Shown: piece by piece, positions 56,468 to 64,000 of the stretch
Layout of the letters: every line of letters begins with the position of its first letter
Position numbering within the stretch: position 1 is the first letter of the stretch
NCBI RefSeq assembly: GCF_000144625.1
Contig: NC_014376.1
Coordinates: 1,054,001 to 1,118,000, forward strand
From: [Clostridium] saccharolyticum WM1
GTDB lineage: Bacteria; Bacillota; Clostridia; Lachnospirales; Lachnospiraceae
DNA: 64,000 bases
Reading direction: 5' to 3'
Notes under the pieces: generated by a model
Seen by the model: only the letters and a program-made list of their open reading frames with translations
Told to the model about the DNA's origin: nothing
Database searches by the model: none
Program-made: the position numbers and the translations under genes

Positions 56468-57514
56468 ATGATACCAGATCGAGAAGTAAGACTTACCCAA
56501 ATGACAAAAACTGCGGGATGTGCAGCTAAAATAGGTCCCGGTACACTTGCCGGGATATTGGAGAATCTGCCTAAATTTCAGGATCCTAATCTGCTGGTGG
56601 GGATCGAAACCTCTGATGACGGGGCTATTTATAAGGTCAACGAGGAAACCGCATTGATCCAGACCCTGGACTTTTTTACCCCTGTGGTGGATGATCCTTA
56701 TACCTTTGGCCAGATAGCTGCTGCCAATGCCTTAAGCGACATTTATGCCATGGGAGGGGAACCAAAGGTGGCTCTTAATATCGTGGCCTGGCCCAACTGC
56801 GTAAATCCCGCTCTATTGGGAAAGATTTTAGAAGGAGGGGCATCTAAGGTCCTTGAGGCCGGGGCTGTGCTGGCCGGAGGGCACTCCATTCAGGATGATG
56901 AGCCGAAATACGGATTAAGCGTCACCGGATTTGTCCATCCGGACAAGGTATTCAAAAACAGCGAAGCCAGGCCGGGGGATGTTCTGATTTTGACAAAGCC
57001 TTTGGGAACCGGGATCGTCAATACGGCAGTAAAAGCGGATATGGCTTCAGAAGAAGCAAAAGAGGAAGTGATCCGTGTCATGACCTCTCTGAATAAAAAA
57101 GCAAAACAGGTAGCAGAGCATTATGAAATCCATAGCTGCACCGATATCACCGGCTTTGGACTGGCTGGACACTCCGTTGAAATGGCGGAGGGCAGCGGGG
57201 TTACAATCGAAATCTTTGTTAAGGATCTGCCTATTCAGAAGGAGGCCATAAGCCTGGCTAAAATGGGACTGATTCCGGAAGGGGCTTACAGGAACCGTTC
57301 CTATACTGAGGAAAAAGTGGATTTTGGGGACACCGAAGAGTACATTCGTGATATTTTCTGTGATCCTCAGACATCCGGAGGACTTTTGCTCAGCGTTTCC
57401 CTTAAGACAGGGGAAAGCATCATGGAGGACCTTAAAAAGGCCCAGATGGACACAGCCTTTGCAATCATCGGACGAGTCGTGGAAAAAGAAGAAAAATCAG
57501 TAAAGTTGAGGTAA
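56468..57514 (+). CDS. selD: Selenide, water dikinase (selenophosphate synthetase)
   Basis: 348 aa; makes selenophosphate from selenide and ATP. The active-site loop reads TKTAGCAAKIGPG: catalytic Cys (TGT codon, not selenocysteine) and Lys are both present. The GGHSIQDDEPKYG and TGFGLAGH motifs are standard. AAGGAG precedes ATG 56468. It starts a unit of selenium genes: class V aminotransferase, LysR, DUF3343. No selA, selB or selC is in the window; with this context, delivery of labile selenium to a molybdenum hydroxylase is the likely role. Confidence 0.94.
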   Translation: MIPDREVRLTQMTKTAGCAAKIGPGTLAGILENLPKFQDPNLLVGIETSDDGAIYKVNEETALIQTLDFFTPVVDDPYTFGQIAAANALSDIYAMGGEPKVALNIVAWPNCVNPALLGKILEGGASKVLEAGAVLAGGHSIQDDEPKYGLSVTGFVHPDKVFKNSEARPGDVLILTKPLGTGIVNTAVKADMASEEAKEEVIRVMTSLNKKAKQVAEHYEIHSCTDITGFGLAGHSVEMAEGSGVTIEIFVKDLPIQKEAISLAKMGLIPEGAYRNRSYTEEKVDFGDTEEYIRDIFCDPQTSGGLLLSVSLKTGESIMEDLKKAQMDTAFAIIGRVVEKEEKSVKLR

Positions 57515-57519
57515 GGAAA

Positions 57520-58662
57520 ATGATCTATCTGGATAATGCGGCGACCTCCTTCCGGAAGCCGGAGGAAGTGAGAAAGGCGGTGTCCGATGCCTTGGTTTCT
57601 CTTGGAAATTCCGGAAGGGGAGCCCATGGGGCATCTCTGGATGCATCCCGCCTGATTTTCGATACCCGCAGGCTCCTGGCAGAGCTTTTTCATGGAGGAG
57701 ATCCTTCCCGGGTGGCTTTTACAGCCAATTCAACGGCCAGCTTGAACATGGCCATTCAGGGCCTCCTTGAACCGGGGGATCATGTGATTACCACCATGAT
57801 GGAACACAATTCCGTACTGCGCCCTCTGTACCGCATGGAGGAGCAGGGCGTGGAGCTTACCATCCTGCCCTCAGATGAAAGGGGCAGGGTTAAGTATGAG
57901 GATTTTGAAGATGCAGTCCGGAAAAATACAAAGGCGGTGGTCTGTACCCATGCCTCCAACTTGACAGGAAACATAAATGACTTGGAAATCATCGGAAGTA
58001 TCTGCAAAAAGCATGGGATTCTTCTGGTGGTGGATGCATCCCAGACTGCAGGGGTATTTGACATTGATATGGAAAAAATGGGGATCCATGTTTTGTGCTT
58101 TACCGGCCATAAAGGTCTTTTGGGACCTCAGGGGACCGGAGGAATCTGTGTCCGTCAGGGAATCTCCTTACGGCCTTTCCTGGTGGGAGGCAGCGGAGTC
58201 AAAAGTTATTTAAAGTCCCAGCCGGAGGAGATGCCGGAAGCCTTGGAAGCCGGAACCTTAAACGGCCACGGGATTGCAGGCCTTCATGCAGCCCTTCTGT
58301 ATCTGGAAAAGACCGGGATTGAAACCATACGGGAAAGGGAGCTTCTGCTTATGAGGCGGTTCTATGAGGGCGTAAAGGATATTCCCGGAGTCCGGGTGTA
58401 TGGGGACTTTTCAGATCAGGCACTTCTTTGCCGGGCTCCGGTAGTGGCTCTTAACATCAGGGATTACGATTCCGGCGAAGTAGCTGACGAGCTGGCTTTC
58501 TCCTATGATATCTATACCAGGGCTGGGGCCCACTGTGCGCCTCTTATGCACCAGGCTCTTGGGACTGTGGAGCAGGGAGCTGTCCGCTTTTCCATGTCCC
58601 ATTATAATGAAGAAGAAGAGATTGACAAAGCCATTCAAGCGGTGAGGGAGCTGAGCTTATGA
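57520..58662 (+). CDS. Class V aminotransferase / cysteine desulfurase-like, SelD-associated type
   Basis: 380 aa PLP enzyme. PLP Lys in CFTGHKGLLGPQGTGG, active-site Cys in RAGAHCAPLMH, and THASNLTGN as in NifS-like proteins. Pattern matches the group (E. faecalis EF2568-like) found beside orphan selD and selenium-dependent molybdenum hydroxylase genes, where it probably mobilises S or Se. Six bases after selD, and its end overlaps the LysR start (ATGA), so the three are one operon. Confidence 0.85.
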   Translation: MIYLDNAATSFRKPEEVRKAVSDALVSLGNSGRGAHGASLDASRLIFDTRRLLAELFHGGDPSRVAFTANSTASLNMAIQGLLEPGDHVITTMMEHNSVLRPLYRMEEQGVELTILPSDERGRVKYEDFEDAVRKNTKAVVCTHASNLTGNINDLEIIGSICKKHGILLVVDASQTAGVFDIDMEKMGIHVLCFTGHKGLLGPQGTGGICVRQGISLRPFLVGGSGVKSYLKSQPEEMPEALEAGTLNGHGIAGLHAALLYLEKTGIETIRERELLLMRRFYEGVKDIPGVRVYGDFSDQALLCRAPVVALNIRDYDSGEVADELAFSYDIYTRAGAHCAPLMHQALGTVEQGAVRFSMSHYNEEEEIDKAIQAVRELSL

Positions 58663-59564
58663 ATCTGAAGCAGTTGGAAGCATTTGTTTGTGTGGCGGAA
58701 GAAAAAAGCTTTTCGGCTGCTGCCAAGAAGCTTTATCTCACCCAGCCTACGGTAAGCGCCCATATCAGTTCTCTGGAAAAGGAACTGGGAGCCCGGCTGT
58801 TTGTCCGGACCACAAAGGATGTGGAACTGTCTCCGGAAGGGGAACAGCTTTACGGCAATGCCAGGAAAATACTTCAATTAGAAAAGAATATTCTGCGGGA
58901 TTTCACCCAGAAGGATTTAAAGACAGCTAACAGGATCGTGGTAGGCGCTTCCACAGTACCGGGACAGTACATACTGCCCCAGATCCTTTCCCTGTTTTCC
59001 AGAACCTATCCGGGAAACCAGCTGGAGCTAAAGGAAGCGGACAGCATGGAGGTGGTCCGGCTGGTACAGGATGGCCTGGTGGAAATCGGCTTTACAGGGA
59101 CCACTGTCACCGATCCCACCTGTGTGTTTGAACCTTTTTATTCGGACCGTCTGGTGATCATCACACCCAACAATGACAAATACCGCCAGTATGAGAAAAC
59201 AGGATTCCCCTTAGAGCAGTTTTATGAGGAGCGCTGGATCTTCCGGGAGGAAGGCTCCGGCACAAGAAAGGAAGCAGAGAGCCATTTAAAGGATATGGGA
59301 GTGGATTTAAGCCGCCTGGAAATTGTGGCGACCATCAGCAATCAGGAAACCATTAAAAAATCCGTGGAGGCGGCCATGGGCATTTCCATCCTGTCTGGCG
59401 CAGCCGTGGATGATTATGTCGAGCAGGGAGCCCTGCTTCGGTTTTCACCGGGACCCCAGGAGATTTACCGGAAATTATATATGGTGTGGAGCAAAAATCA
59501 CAAGCCAGGAAAAGCGGCCAGATTGTTTATCCGATTTGTCCGGGAACTGTATGCGTATTTATAG
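58659..59564 (+). CDS. LysR family regulator, selenium-metabolism-associated
   Basis: 301 aa. N-terminal winged helix (LEAFVCVAEEKSFSAAAKKL, LTQPTVSAHISSLEKELG), then a substrate-binding domain like a periplasmic binding protein. Located inside the selD operon, translationally coupled to the aminotransferase, which matches a LysR subtype known next to selenium genes. Probably controls this operon or the hydroxylase genes. Effector unknown. Confidence 0.85.
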   Translation: MNLKQLEAFVCVAEEKSFSAAAKKLYLTQPTVSAHISSLEKELGARLFVRTTKDVELSPEGEQLYGNARKILQLEKNILRDFTQKDLKTANRIVVGASTVPGQYILPQILSLFSRTYPGNQLELKEADSMEVVRLVQDGLVEIGFTGTTVTDPTCVFEPFYSDRLVIITPNNDKYRQYEKTGFPLEQFYEERWIFREEGSGTRKEAESHLKDMGVDLSRLEIVATISNQETIKKSVEAAMGISILSGAAVDDYVEQGALLRFSPGPQEIYRKLYMVWSKNHKPGKAARLFIRFVRELYAYL

Positions 59565-59629
59565 AATTTCCCTATAAAAAATCAATGACCGATGACTTAA
59601 GATTATTAAAGAAACACGGGTAAGAGACT

Positions 59630-59866
59630 ATGAGAAAAAAAGAACGAAAAATTGTCATCACCTTCCGCACGACAGCAGAAGCCATTGCCATGGAATCCCA
59701 ATGCCAGAAGGAGGGAATTCCGGGCCGGCTCATTCCCGTTCCCAGACAGATTTCTTCTGGCTGCGGTCTTTCCTGGGCAATGCCGGCTGACTGGGAGGGA
59801 GACATTGGACCGTGGCTGGAGGACAGGGGGCTCCGTTGGGATAAGATAGGGGAATATTTTATATAA
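59630..59866 (+). CDS. DUF3343 putative Se/S carrier protein
   Basis: 78 aa. Starts ERKIVITFRTTAEAIAMES and contains the single Cys in SSGCGLSWAMP, the family mark of DUF3343, which is thought to carry sulfur or selenium as persulfide or perselenide. Members sit in selD/molybdenum-hydroxylase clusters, as here. Downstream of the LysR gene by 65 bases. Confidence 0.85.
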   Translation: MRKKERKIVITFRTTAEAIAMESQCQKEGIPGRLIPVPRQISSGCGLSWAMPADWEGDIGPWLEDRGLRWDKIGEYFI

Positions 59867-60052
59867 TTTTTCTGTCAATGTTCGTGTAATATTGAGCAAT
59901 ATTTAAAGGGAAAGAGTCAGAGGGGAATGGCTGCGGCTGCTCTTTTCCGGCTCTTTTATAGAAAATATCTATGGACTATTAACCGACAATTATTGGTTAT
60001 ACTGGAAAGAATGCTGCTAAATTATAACAAATGTACAAAAAAGAAATGGGTA

Positions 60053-60082
60053 TTGACAAATAGTTGTACAATATGATATAGT
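60053..60082 (+). promoter_or_regulatory. Promoter of the guanine deaminase unit with TGTACA repeats
   Basis: TTGACA (60053-60058), 18-base spacer, TATAGT (60077-60082). TGTACA occurs at 60032-60037 and again within the spacer at 60065-60070, a possible operator pair on both sides of the -35. The leader runs to the riboswitch. Confidence 0.65.
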
Positions 60083-60126
60083 CAACCTGTCACAAGTAAA
60101 AGGAATTTTTAGTATCAGTATTCAAA

Positions 60127-60272
60127 GAAACTTATATATGCTCATAATTGGTTGAGCGTCTCTACCAACTACCGTAATAGTTGCCTATAAGTTTCCGCAC
60201 CATAATAACCTCAGCTTTTTTGTTGTGTGTTAACGATGTGTGCGGAACAGATGGAAACTACGGTAGTTTTTT
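60127..60272 (+). promoter_or_regulatory. Variant purine riboswitch with terminator
   Basis: Aptamer 60127-60195. P1: GAAACTTATA (60127-60136) with TATAAGTTTC (60186-60195). P2: GCTCA/TGAGC. J2/3 is GTCTCTAC (canonical GTTTCTAC). P3: CAACTA/TAGTTG with loop CCGTAA. The residue that selects guanine (C74) is C (60185), but the base before it is C, not the usual A. P2 is shorter than usual. Expression platform: AACTACCGTA of P3 (60167-60176) and AGTTTCC of P1 (60190-60196) are complementary to 60253-60268, which precedes TTTTTT (60267-60272). Terminator and aptamer therefore exclude each other, predicting activation on ligand binding. Confidence 0.82.
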
Positions 60273-60357
60273 ATTGCGAAGAGTGATCAGAAAGGCTGGA
60301 ACGCCGCAATTATGGCTGCCGTATTTTGAAATTCTCTGATACGGAATGGGAGGTTCT

Positions 60358-61638
60358 ATGAATGGTGGTATAAGCTTTGTTTTAAAAGGCAACATTATTT
60401 ACAGCAATGATGACCGCACCTTAAAGACGGTGGAGCAGGGATACCTGGTTTGCCGGGAAGGGAAGTCAGCAGGAGTCTTTCAGGAGCTTCCTGAGCAGTT
60501 TAAAGATTATCCGCTGGAGGATTGGGGAGATATGCTCCTTGTTCCTGGACTGGTGGATCTTCATATCCATGCACCCCAGTTTGCCTTCCGCGGCATGGGA
60601 ATGGATCTGGAGCTTTTAGACTGGCTGAATACCAATACCTTTCCGGAGGAGGCAAAGTATGCCGATCTGGAATATGCCCAAAAGGCTTACGGAATTTTTG
60701 CAGATTCCATGAAAAAAAGCGCTACGACCAGAGCCTGTATATTTGGCACGATCCACAGACCGGCCACAGAGCTTTTAATGGACCTGATGGAGGAAACCGG
60801 CTTAAAGACTATGATCGGCAAGGTGAATATGGACCGGAATTCCCCGGACTTTTTGAAGGAACAAAGTGCCGAAGCATCGGAGCAGGAGACCCTCCGCTGG
60901 CTGGAGGAAACCGGCTCCAGGTATGAGAATGTGAAACCCATCCTCACGCCCCGGTTCATTCCATCCTGTACGGATGATCTTATGGAGCGGCTGGGAAAGC
61001 TGCAGAAGGAGTACGGACTGCCGGTACAGTCCCATTTATCTGAAAATCAAGGGGAGGTGGCCTGGGTCAAAGAGCTTTGCCCTGCTTCCAGATTTTACGG
61101 AGATGCTTATGACCGGTTTGGCCTGTTCGGAGGAAACGGAAAGACGGTTATGGCCCATTGTGTTTCTTCGTCAGAAGAAGAGATTGAATTAATAAAAGAG
61201 CGGGGGGTTACCATTGCTCACTGCCCTCAGTCAAACACCAACTTATCGTCAGGAGTGGCTCCTGTCAGGACCTATCTGGACCGGGGGGTGAAGGTGGGTC
61301 TGGGAAGTGATGTGGCTGGAGGAAGCGGAGAATCCATTTTCCGTGCCATGGCTGATGCCATTCAGGTATCTAAGCTGAGATGGAGGCTGAAGGATGATCG
61401 CTTAAAGCCCCTTACAGTGGAAGAGGCTTTTTACCTGGGTACCTTAGGCGGCGGATCCTTCTTTGGAAAAGTGGGAAGCTTTCAGGAAGGATATGAACTG
61501 GATGTATTAATCCTGGATGACGGCAGCCTGCCTCATCCTCAGACTCTTACCCTGCGGGAGAGGCTGGAACGGTTCATCTACCTGTCTGATGACAGACATA
61601 TTAAGGGGAAATATGTGGGAGGATATAGGATTTTCTAG
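60358..61638 (+). CDS. guaD: Guanine deaminase
   Basis: 426 aa zinc amidohydrolase that converts guanine to xanthine. Metal and substrate motifs: LVDLHIHAPQFAFRGMGMD, SHLSENQGEVAWV, HCVSSS, GLGSDVAGGSG. GGGAGG (60348-60353) supports ATG 60358 rather than ATG 60346. Preceded by a purine riboswitch and followed by a purine permease and a molybdenum hydroxylase, giving a guanine-to-xanthine-to-urate type route. Confidence 0.92.
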   Translation: MNGGISFVLKGNIIYSNDDRTLKTVEQGYLVCREGKSAGVFQELPEQFKDYPLEDWGDMLLVPGLVDLHIHAPQFAFRGMGMDLELLDWLNTNTFPEEAKYADLEYAQKAYGIFADSMKKSATTRACIFGTIHRPATELLMDLMEETGLKTMIGKVNMDRNSPDFLKEQSAEASEQETLRWLEETGSRYENVKPILTPRFIPSCTDDLMERLGKLQKEYGLPVQSHLSENQGEVAWVKELCPASRFYGDAYDRFGLFGGNGKTVMAHCVSSSEEEIELIKERGVTIAHCPQSNTNLSSGVAPVRTYLDRGVKVGLGSDVAGGSGESIFRAMADAIQVSKLRWRLKDDRLKPLTVEEAFYLGTLGGGSFFGKVGSFQEGYELDVLILDDGSLPHPQTLTLRERLERFIYLSDDRHIKGKYVGGYRIF

Positions 61639-61719
61639 CTTTACTTAATGAAAAAGAGGACTGCATGGGGCAGCTCTTATACAGCAAGAAAATATTCTAA
61701 CTATCAAGGAGGTAGAAGT

Positions 61720-63114
61720 ATGGAAACAAAAAAAAGCGGAGGATTCTTAGAAAGATTATTTCACTTAACTGAGAATCACACGGATGCAAGGACAGAGATC
61801 GTGGCCGGCATTACCACATTCATGACCATGGCTTATATCCTGGCAGTCAACCCAAGCATTTTAAGTGCAGCGGGAATGGACAGCGGAGCCGTATTTACGG
61901 CCACGGCACTTGCATCACTGTTTGCCACCCTTTTAATGGCAGGACTTGCCAACTATCCCTTCGTACTGGCGCCTGGAATGGGACTTAATGCGTATTTTGC
62001 ATATACCGTAGTCCTTAACATGGGCTATACCTGGGAGATGGCTCTGGCCGCCGTGTTCATGGAAGGTATTATTTTCATCGCCCTTTCCCTGACAAACGTA
62101 CGTGAAGCGATCTTCAATGCGATCCCTGTAAATTTAAAGCATGCCGTATCCGTAGGTATTGGCTTGTTTATCGCATTCATCGGACTTCAGAATGCAAAAA
62201 TCGTCGTAGATGGGGCAACTCTCGTAACAATGTTTTCCTTTAAAAGCTCTTTGGGGGATGGTTCCTTTTATACCGTCGGCATTACCGTTTTGTTAGCGAT
62301 TATCGGTATTCTGGTAACTGCTGTGCTGGTAGTAAAAAATGTAAAAGGCAACATTTTGTGGGGAATCATCATTACCTGGATTTTAGGTATGGTCTGTCAG
62401 GCCATCGGCTTATACCGGCCAAATCCGGAGCTGGGAATGTACAGCGTATTCCCGAATTTCTCAGCAGGATTTGGAATTCCTGATATGAGTCCTACCTTCT
62501 TGAAGCTGGATTTTTCCAGAGTAATTTCCCTGGATTTCCTTGTAGTAATGTTTGCATTCCTGTTCGTTGACATGTTCGATACCCTGGGAACCTTAATCGG
62601 AGTGGCCTCCAAGGCTGATATGCTGGATAAAGACGGAAAGCTGCCTCAGATCAAGGGTGCATTAATGGCTGATGCCGTTGGTACGACAGCAGGAGCATTA
62701 TTCGGTACCTCCACCACAACTACCTTCGTAGAAAGCGCCGCAGGTGTTGCAGAAGGCGGAAGAACCGGATTAACAGCAGTGGTTGCAGCCATTCTCTTTG
62801 GCTTATCCCTGTTCTTGTCCCCGATTTTCTTAGCCATTCCGTCCTTTGCGACGGCACCGGCTCTGGTAGTGGTAGGCTTTTTAATGCTGACCTCTGTCAC
62901 CAAAATAGATTTTGCAGATTTCACAGAAGCGATTCCAAGCTATATCGCCATCATTGCGATGCCGTTTATGTACAGCATTTCTGAAGGAATCTCCTTAGGA
63001 ATTATCTCTTACGTAGTTATTAATTTAGTAACCGGAAGAGCAAAAGAAAAGAAAATCAGTGCCCTTATGTATGTTTTGGCGATATTATTTGTGCTGAAAT
63101 ATATATTAATATAG
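61720..63114 (+). CDS. NCS2/AzgA family guanine-hypoxanthine permease
   Basis: 464 aa, about 13 TM segments. AzgA/PbuG marks: EIVAGITTFMTMAYILAVNP, APGMGLNAYFAYTVV, LFVDMFDTLGTLIGVA, TTTFVESAAGVAEGGRTGL. It imports guanine or hypoxanthine with protons. AAGGAGG precedes ATG 61720; the upstream open frame is not coding. Lies 81 bases after guanine deaminase, with no terminator between, so it is under the same riboswitch. Confidence 0.92.
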   Translation: METKKSGGFLERLFHLTENHTDARTEIVAGITTFMTMAYILAVNPSILSAAGMDSGAVFTATALASLFATLLMAGLANYPFVLAPGMGLNAYFAYTVVLNMGYTWEMALAAVFMEGIIFIALSLTNVREAIFNAIPVNLKHAVSVGIGLFIAFIGLQNAKIVVDGATLVTMFSFKSSLGDGSFYTVGITVLLAIIGILVTAVLVVKNVKGNILWGIIITWILGMVCQAIGLYRPNPELGMYSVFPNFSAGFGIPDMSPTFLKLDFSRVISLDFLVVMFAFLFVDMFDTLGTLIGVASKADMLDKDGKLPQIKGALMADAVGTTAGALFGTSTTTTFVESAAGVAEGGRTGLTAVVAAILFGLSLFLSPIFLAIPSFATAPALVVVGFLMLTSVTKIDFADFTEAIPSYIAIIAMPFMYSISEGISLGIISYVVINLVTGRAKEKKISALMYVLAILFVLKYILI

Positions 63115-63309: not shown

Positions 63310-64000
63310 ATGATAATCGGAAAAAGTGTTGCCCGTGTTGATGCATTTGACAAAGTCACGGGAAGATCCAAATACACCGATGATCTTTGTGAGAAAAATG
63401 CTCTGGTAGCGAAAATTTACCATTCTGCCATAGCCAATGGAAAGGTTACATCCATTGATACTTCAGAGGCAGAAAAAATACCGGGAGTGGTTAAGGTAGT
63501 GACCTGTTTTGACGTACCAAAGATCTATTTCCCGACAGCCGGTCATCCATGGTCTACGGATACAAGCCATCAGGATGTAGCAGACCGTCTGCTCTTAACA
63601 GACCGGGTGCGTTTCTGCGGCGATGATGTGGCAGCAGTAATTGCGGAAAGTGAAATAGCTGCTAAACAGGCGATCAAGGCGTTAAAGGTGGAATATGAGG
63701 AGTATCCCTTTGTTCTTGACGTCCAGGAGGCTATGGAAGAGGGGGCACCTCAGCTTCACGAAAAATATAGCAATAACATTCTGGGTCATTCCAGCATAAG
63801 AAAAGGGAATATAGAAGAGGCTATTAAGGAGCCGGGCTTAATTAAGATCGACCAGTGGTATGATACTCCCATTGTTCAGCACTGCCATATTGAAAACCAT
63901 ATTTGTTTTGCCAGTATGGAAAACGGAAAAATAACCGTGGTATCTTCCACCCAGATTCCTCATATCGTCAGAAGAGTGGTGGGGCAGGCTCTTGGAATTC
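63310..64000 (+). CDS. Xanthine dehydrogenase-type molybdenum hydroxylase, Mo-binding subunit (3' partial)
   Basis: 230 codons are visible, open to the window end. The sequence starts IIGKSVARVDAFDKVTGRSKYTDDL and continues with the aldehyde oxidase/xanthine dehydrogenase a/b hammerhead domain (RVRFCGDDVAAVIAESE), then QHCHIENH at the start of the molybdopterin-binding domain. TAGGAGG (63297-63303) sets ATG 63310. The neighbouring guanine deaminase, purine permease and selenium genes suggest a selenium-dependent xanthine (or purine) hydroxylase. FAD and Fe-S subunits would lie downstream. Confidence 0.88.
   Translation, partial: MIIGKSVARVDAFDKVTGRSKYTDDLCEKNALVAKIYHSAIANGKVTSIDTSEAEKIPGVVKVVTCFDVPKIYFPTAGHPWSTDTSHQDVADRLLLTDRVRFCGDDVAAVIAESEIAAKQAIKALKVEYEEYPFVLDVQEAMEEGAPQLHEKYSNNILGHSSIRKGNIEEAIKEPGLIKIDQWYDTPIVQHCHIENHICFASMENGKITVVSSTQIPHIVRRVVGQALGI

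Follow-up and report, generated by a model that had tools for sequence, protein, structure and literature searches.

Related purine riboswitches

Guanine-I riboswitches of the Bacillus subtilis xpt-pbuX type (Rfam family RF00167) are usually OFF switches in front of synthesis and salvage genes, and U22, U51 and C74 are named as ligand contacts in the available part of PMC9295807. The leader described here, with its aptamer at positions 60112-60207 of the window (the whole 64-kb stretch of DNA that was analysed), shares with them the three-way junction, the kissing-loop bases, U22, U47, U51 and C74. However, it carries the changes A24U, U48C and A73C in place of the consensus A24, U48 and A73, its P2 has 5 bp, and it is a predicted ON switch in front of catabolic genes. 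The missing consensus bases do not exclude it from guanine-I, because these positions also vary in aptamers that precede xpt, guaA and purE.

The closest mechanism, by analogy, is that of the adenine ON switch of B. subtilis pbuE. As far as the accessible text of PMC7707468 describes it, that riboswitch shares with the present leader the ON logic, a terminator that invades the aptamer with the help of a nucleating hairpin located 3′ of P1. In contrast to pbuE, the leader carries C74 (guanine type) rather than U74, and its invading arm reaches the 5′ strand of P3 and L3.

Three further classes, xanthine-II, guanine-II and 2′-dG-III, are defined in PMC9295807, whose available excerpts give the features used here. 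Xanthine-II resembles the window element in its predicted ON direction and its association with purine-breakdown genes, but is marked by U51G and by insertions in J2-3 and J3-1, whereas the window element has U51 (60163) and no insertion, for which reasons this identity was rejected. Guanine-II has in common with it the ligand guanine (predicted here) and the predicted ON direction; it has U51, and its one-nucleotide J2-3 insertion, its xanthine-II-like changes and its usual place before phosphoribosyltransferases are not features of the window element, so that guanine-II was rejected as well for want of an insertion in J2/3 or J3/1. The third class, 2′-dG-III, compared by description only, is marked by C73, by changes in all of its junctions and by a nucleoside hydrolase gene; the element has C73 and one change in each junction, but it keeps C74 and U51 and its gene is guaD, and it was not filed there.

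The aptamer

The Rfam purine model, which the first-pass annotation of this DNA had suggested as a check, matches the plus strand at 60112-60207 over all 102 model positions with 53.2 bits (E 3.1e-06), above the gathering score of 37, and this is the sole match in the window at Rfam gathering scores. The 70-nt aptamer folds with −20.1 kcal/mol (z −4.8), which is equalled by none of 200 shuffles. In the Rfam alignment and the computed fold, P1 pairs 60127-60136 with 60186-60195, P2 with its loop spans 60140-60157 (60140-60144 paired with 60153-60157), and P3 with the loop L3, CCGUAA, spans 60166-60183 (60166-60171 paired with 60178-60183). The GG in L2 is presumably the partner of the kissing pairs with L3.

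In xpt numbering, J1/2 (60137-60139) reads UAU, i.e., U22, A23 and U24; J2/3 (60158-60165) reads G46, U47, C48, U49, C50, U51, A52 and C53; and J3/1 (60184-60185) consists of C73, where the consensus has A, and the specificity base C74. The core thus departs from the consensus at U24 (60139), C48 (60160) and C73 (60184), while U22, U51 (60163), C74 (60185) and U47, which we take to be a ligand-contact base of the guanine-I aptamer, are unchanged and neither J2/3 nor J3/1 contains an insertion. The first-pass annotation had read P1, P3 and C74 as kept, C at positions 73 and 48 and a shortened P2, all of which agrees with the sequence, the alignment and the fold, in which P1, P2 and P3 all form; it had overlooked A24U.

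The expression platform

A promoter-like site lies upstream at 60053-60082 on the plus strand (TTGACA, an 18-nt spacer and TATAGT with an extended −10 TG; 11 of 12 consensus positions), one of four such sites found in 59600-60400, where 2.1 are expected from shuffles. Downstream, the terminator region 60166-60275 folds with −39.2 kcal/mol (z −5.8; equalled by 0 of 200 shuffles). Its inner hairpin (60191-60248, plus strand) pairs 60191-60203 with 60236-60248 below an upper stem and, as 60194-60246, is compatible with an aptamer that lacks the two outermost pairs of P1. The arm on the 3′ side of the terminator (60260-60272, plus strand) is complementary to the P3 5′ strand and L3 (60167-60175) and runs into six U (60267-60272). 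The pairs between 60167-60175 and 60260-60268 have predicted probabilities of 0.56 (end pair), 0.75, 0.91 and, for the other six, 1.0, and none of 300 tail shuffles reaches the energy of this duplex. The first-pass annotation had built the terminator from P3 and P1 strands. The P3 part stands, and so does the use of a P1 strand, although not through the proposed pairing of 60190-60196 with 60253 onwards: in the minimum free energy (MFE) structure, the region of the P1 3′ strand pairs as 60185-60188 with 60251-60254 and within the inner hairpin. A simple terminator scan of 59600-60400, limited to loops of 3-8, gave one site (59935-59952) and did not list the terminator formed by P3 and the tail, because the loop of that terminator exceeds the scan range.

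In the predicted folds, the pairing of the tail with P3 and the aptamer are mutually exclusive. When the leader is folded to 60262, the MFE structure contains the aptamer (−37.6 kcal/mol), whereas through the U-tract (60275) the terminator reaches −47.7 kcal/mol versus −40.9 kcal/mol for the best fold that keeps the aptamer, all energies being those of models without the kissing loop, Mg2+ or kinetics. The aptamer thus comes first and the terminator follows once the tail is made, an order that suits a co-transcriptional decision; since a ligand stabilises the aptamer and the terminator excludes it, ligand binding should prevent termination.

The downstream operon

The first gene, guaD (60358-61638, plus strand), encodes a guanine deaminase that scores 362 bits with TIGR02967, slightly below the cut-off of 375.4, and has as its best solved relative 2i9u (435 bits), titled ‘cytosine/guanine deaminase related protein’. 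Its frame is also open from an ATG at 60346, and GGGAGG precedes 60358. Models of 8-oxoguanine deaminase fit less well (NF006055, 110 bits against a cut-off of 532; the solved structure 7ww2, 80 bits against 435 for 2i9u). The 8-oxoguanine riboswitch class, which we take to be marked by an 8-oxoguanine deaminase gene downstream, does not fit the window gene in that feature. The second gene, on the same strand (61648-63114), is a permease of the xanthine/uracil type (PF00860, 155 bits; cut-off 27), for which the profile search gave no NCBIfam match and whose substrate, judging from the family, would be a purine. It is followed on the plus strand by xdhA, the molybdenum subunit of xanthine dehydrogenase (63310-63999, continuing past the window end), with xdhB and xdhC next in the genome beyond the window; read as whole genes from the genome, all three exceed their NCBIfam cut-offs, and XdhABC is the ‘hydroxylase’ that the first-pass annotation had considered probable. 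The operon is predicted to import purines, convert guanine to xanthine and then oxidise it further. Immediately upstream of the purine operon (56468-59564) lie selD, a cysteine desulfurase family gene and a LysR regulator of selenium metabolism.

Conservation of the architecture

A search of 25 Lacrimispora genomes with the purine model gave 55 matches, whose classes were read by eye: 26 orthologues of the window element, 18 A24/A73 aptamers, 9 with U51G, 1 guanine-II-like and 1 with U74. The orthologues are present in each of the 25 genomes (in one case divided between two contigs), and all 26 have 24U and 73U/C. In 25 of them guaD is the next gene, the 26th sitting at a contig end, and (A/G)CGGU(A/G)G stands immediately 5′ of at least six U in all 25 that have downstream sequence. 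The tail of the relatives L016, L018 and L050 is GGAAAUAGCGGUAGUUUU, and it folds with P3.

Beyond the genus, a pattern search for 73-pyrimidine aptamers in 299 genomes of the family, one per genus, provided a family set of 16 loci picked by eye for a paired P3, the remaining rows being dropped as chance matches; guaD or the permease lies downstream of 14, and a FAD-dependent protein of 2 (in L091, by eye). A contig scan for 73-pyrimidine aptamers gave at least 80 loci, and the matches listed include Blautia, Hungatella, Dorea, Enterococcus, Tumebacillus, Prevotella and Bdellovibrio. Either guaD or the permease follows in 38 of these 80 listed matches, and others precede xpt, guaA, purE, MATE-like genes or short exported-looking proteins. 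The genes following 73-pyrimidine aptamers were checked at one locus each for xpt (L119), guaA (L159) and purE (L160), and exceed their NCBIfam cut-offs.

Pooling the listed genus, family and scan matches gave at least 141 leaders, 111 of them distinct, of which 60 are catabolic, defined as a BLAST match downstream to the guaD or permease of the window, and 51 are not; gene calls in this comparison rest on BLAST to a few reference proteins and on ATG-started ORFs. Among the matches listed, the tail pairs with P3 in one fold test in 51 of the 60 distinct catabolic 73-pyrimidine leaders, and the remaining 9 have a local terminator only (3), no U-tract (1) or neither structure (5). The corresponding count among listed non-catabolic or unassigned leaders outside the genus is 5 of 39 (2 upstream of the FAD-dependent protein, 2 with no gene assigned and 1 other), the others having a local terminator only (20), no U-tract (6) or none of these (8); this count leaves out 12 non-catabolic genus leaders, 11 of which have no U-tract. 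The leaders are related by descent, so that none of these counts is independent, and one leader (L109) is ON in one fold test and local in the other, showing that the classification depends on fold boundaries.

A tail-P3 duplex of −9 kcal/mol or lower occurs in 48 catabolic leaders among the matches listed; in all 47 that could be parsed (L088 was dropped), the MFE structure contains the tail-P3 pairing and is more stable than the aptamer fold, which is not independent evidence as these leaders were chosen for pairing. Tail shuffles reach a leader's own duplex energy in at most 15 of 300 cases for 48 of 60 catabolic versus 6 of 51 other leaders among the matches listed, where the tail is the best of all U-tracts of a leader and the shuffles do not repeat that choice. 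A test for compensatory covariation of the tail with P3 was negative: when the tails are exchanged between leaders, the register being fixed, the canonical fraction stays almost the same (0.673 vs 0.665 ± 0.008; 192 of 1000 permutations as good), and for double changes 154 of 1000 are as good, the pairing not being significantly reduced. A swap test with foreign P3 variants, which is weak as the variants differ little, favoured the own P3 in 318 cases, disfavoured it in 123 and was tied in 90.

Proposed mechanism, ligand and direction

The leader with the aptamer at 60112-60207 is considered likely to be a purine riboswitch of the guanine-I class that works as a transcriptional ON switch, and the best reading of the sequence comparison would be a guanine-I aptamer on an ON platform like that of the adenine switch pbuE, kept in 25 of 25 Lacrimispora genomes and in other genera. 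In the model, the nascent RNA would, in the absence of ligand, make the hairpin 3′ of the aptamer (60194-60246), the emerging 60251-60268 segment would invade P1 and P3 and pair with L3 and the 5′ strand of P3, and the polymerase would stop at the run of six U. Bound guanine would lock the three-way junction and keep P3 closed, leaving the 3′ arm of the terminator without a strong partner, and transcription would read through into guaD, the permease and xdhABC, such that guanine would induce its own uptake and oxidation. The kinetics and the act of termination, like guanine as the ligand, are inferred. The first-pass annotation's proposal of a ligand-activated switch with a catabolic logic finds computational support in the competing folds and in the 51 of 60 catabolic leaders among the matches listed, and the predicted ON direction is well supported by inference.

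A conventional OFF switch, in which the bound aptamer permits a downstream terminator and guanine represses the operon, would follow the described behaviour of the class: guanine-I riboswitches are said to lower expression when guanine is plentiful in the available part of PMC9295807, and all four purine riboswitches of C. difficile are OFF switches according to the excerpted PMC11477304. The hairpin 60194-60246 and a weak, AU-rich local hairpin 5′ of the U-tract can also fold beside an intact aptamer. However, the hairpin that adjoins the U-tract is an AU-rich stem that consumes the U-tract itself, whereas the tail pairs with P3 both in L016, L018 and L050 and in most catabolic leaders among the matches listed, and a repression of guanine breakdown by guanine would make little sense. 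This reading is therefore regarded as very unlikely.

The ligand is probably guanine, as judged from the aptamer bases and the genes. The same ON mechanism could instead answer in the cell to xanthine or hypoxanthine, or to the oxopurine pool, since the permease and the xanthine dehydrogenase encoded by xdhABC would act on these purines and A24U, U48C and A73C would loosen selectivity. According to the available part of PMC9295807, the selectivity of guanine-I pockets over hypoxanthine and xanthine is only about 10-fold, so that guanine as the sole ligand is not certain, and one C. difficile purine riboswitch, in front of a permease, reportedly responds specifically to xanthine (PMC11477304, excerpt). 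This alternative is nevertheless considered improbable, as the ligand-contact bases match guanine-I, guanine is the substrate of the first gene product, the G51 and the J2-3 and J3-1 insertions of xanthine-II are absent, and xpt, guaA and purE are found downstream of 73-pyrimidine aptamers as well. A sensor of 8-oxoguanine or of a nucleoside is the least credible of these readings, although purine-fold variants with such ligands exist and 2′-dG-III combines C73 with a predicted ON architecture (PMC9295807, available part). The deaminase scores favour guanine deaminase, the 8-oxoguanine class having been compared here by this downstream gene; 2′-dG-III, in the same excerpts, deviates in all three junctions and is exclusively associated with nucleoside hydrolase genes.

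The suggestion of the first-pass annotation that the core changes shift the specificity, for example to xanthine, hypoxanthine or a deoxynucleoside, did not find support: U22, U47, U51 and C74 are intact, positions 24 and 73 vary before xpt, guaA and purE, and guaD also follows A73 aptamers elsewhere. An altered specificity through A73C and U48C was accordingly rejected as the leading idea, given the 73-pyrimidine aptamers at L119, L159 and L160 and the 15 of 43 A73 aptamers with guaD as the first ORF. With guanine kept as the probable ligand, A24U, U48C and A73C are read as ordinary variation or natural tuning of guanine aptamers in these bacteria, rather than as a change of ligand. Stoddard et al. 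reportedly described in 2013 such natural tuning near the purine riboswitch pocket. The accessible text of PMC6649850 cites a crystal structure in which hypoxanthine is bound to the xpt aptamer with A24U.

Position 73 was compared in a sample obtained with a pattern that leaves this position open (one genome per genus), comprising 16 pyrimidine and 43 A73 loci chosen by eye for a paired P3; L088 and L091 are not among the 16 owing to the stricter pattern. An ON-type fold is found in 13 of 16 73-pyrimidine versus 10 of 43 A73 leaders (Fisher p 1.5e-4, phylogeny ignored), and guaD is the first ORF after 11 of 16 and 15 of 43 aptamers, respectively (family sample, other genera). At position 24, each group includes aptamers with A, with U and with G, and an ON terminator occurs in 4 of 22 A73 catabolic leaders, which, mostly lacking one, may act on translation. 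A pyrimidine at position 73 thus appears to be associated with the ON platform, an association that shared descent could explain. Tentatively, nucleotide 73 might be coupled to the expression platform rather than to the ligand, a pyrimidine being selected where a terminator must invade P3, as in ON switches; the loss of A73 would perhaps destabilise the unliganded junction and keep the OFF state tight. If true, guanine-activated guanine breakdown would represent a hidden, widespread ON branch of the guanine-I riboswitches.

Should the prediction be right, an aptamer known from repressors would activate guanine catabolism in clostridia, the sign being set by the expression platform, and annotation based on Rfam would give these operons no sign of regulation or the wrong one; the Rfam purine alignment covers little outside the aptamer (PMC10907184, available part). 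This bears on purine turnover by Lachnospiraceae and offers a natural test set for the tuning of junction bases to strand-invading terminators. Among the papers listed in a literature search there was no account of a purine riboswitch that activates guanine deaminase, which is weak evidence of novelty as subscription papers lay largely outside it.

Other purine aptamers

The 18 A24/A73 aptamers (L002/L226 and 17 other Lacrimispora loci), like aptamers in other genera, precede a 470-aa FAD-dependent protein with Pyr_redox_2 and FAD-depend_C domains; some leaders of this protein in other genera also fold as ON switches. Nine of the 25 Lacrimispora genomes contain aptamers (L029, L038-L045) in which GUCUCGACC (U51G) is combined with an insertion in J3/1. 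These aptamers lie before xdh-like genes, of which the one at L038 encodes 485 aa with the domains Fer2 and FAD_binding_5, and fit the description of xanthine-II in our reading of the alignment. The genome of the window has three purine matches, none of this kind. One of them, L003/L225 (2463027-2463127, minus strand), is a guanine-II-like aptamer with insertions in J2/3 and J3/1 and with U51, as judged by eye, and precedes a PbuX-type xanthine permease (TIGR03173, 423 bits). The top purine score in the genus, 69.5 bits, belongs to an aptamer in one Lacrimispora genome (L004, 1501-1598) whose base 74 is the adenine-type U.

In Bdellovibrio, Oligoflexales and other proteobacteria, 73-pyrimidine aptamers among the matches listed end 10-13 nt 5′ of ORFs that start like exported proteins (L108, L121, L124, L126, L128, L133, L141, L147, L150, L154, L163, L165, L170 and L180); the ORF at L126 matches S1/P1 nuclease (PF02265, 37.1 bits), and that at L147 has no Pfam match. 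In Prevotella/Segatella, 24G/73U aptamers (L106, L114, L130 and L145) lie 32-37 nt 5′ of a MATE-like transporter, which at L106 is an open-ended fragment scoring 113 bits with TIGR00797, below the cut-off of 147.4.
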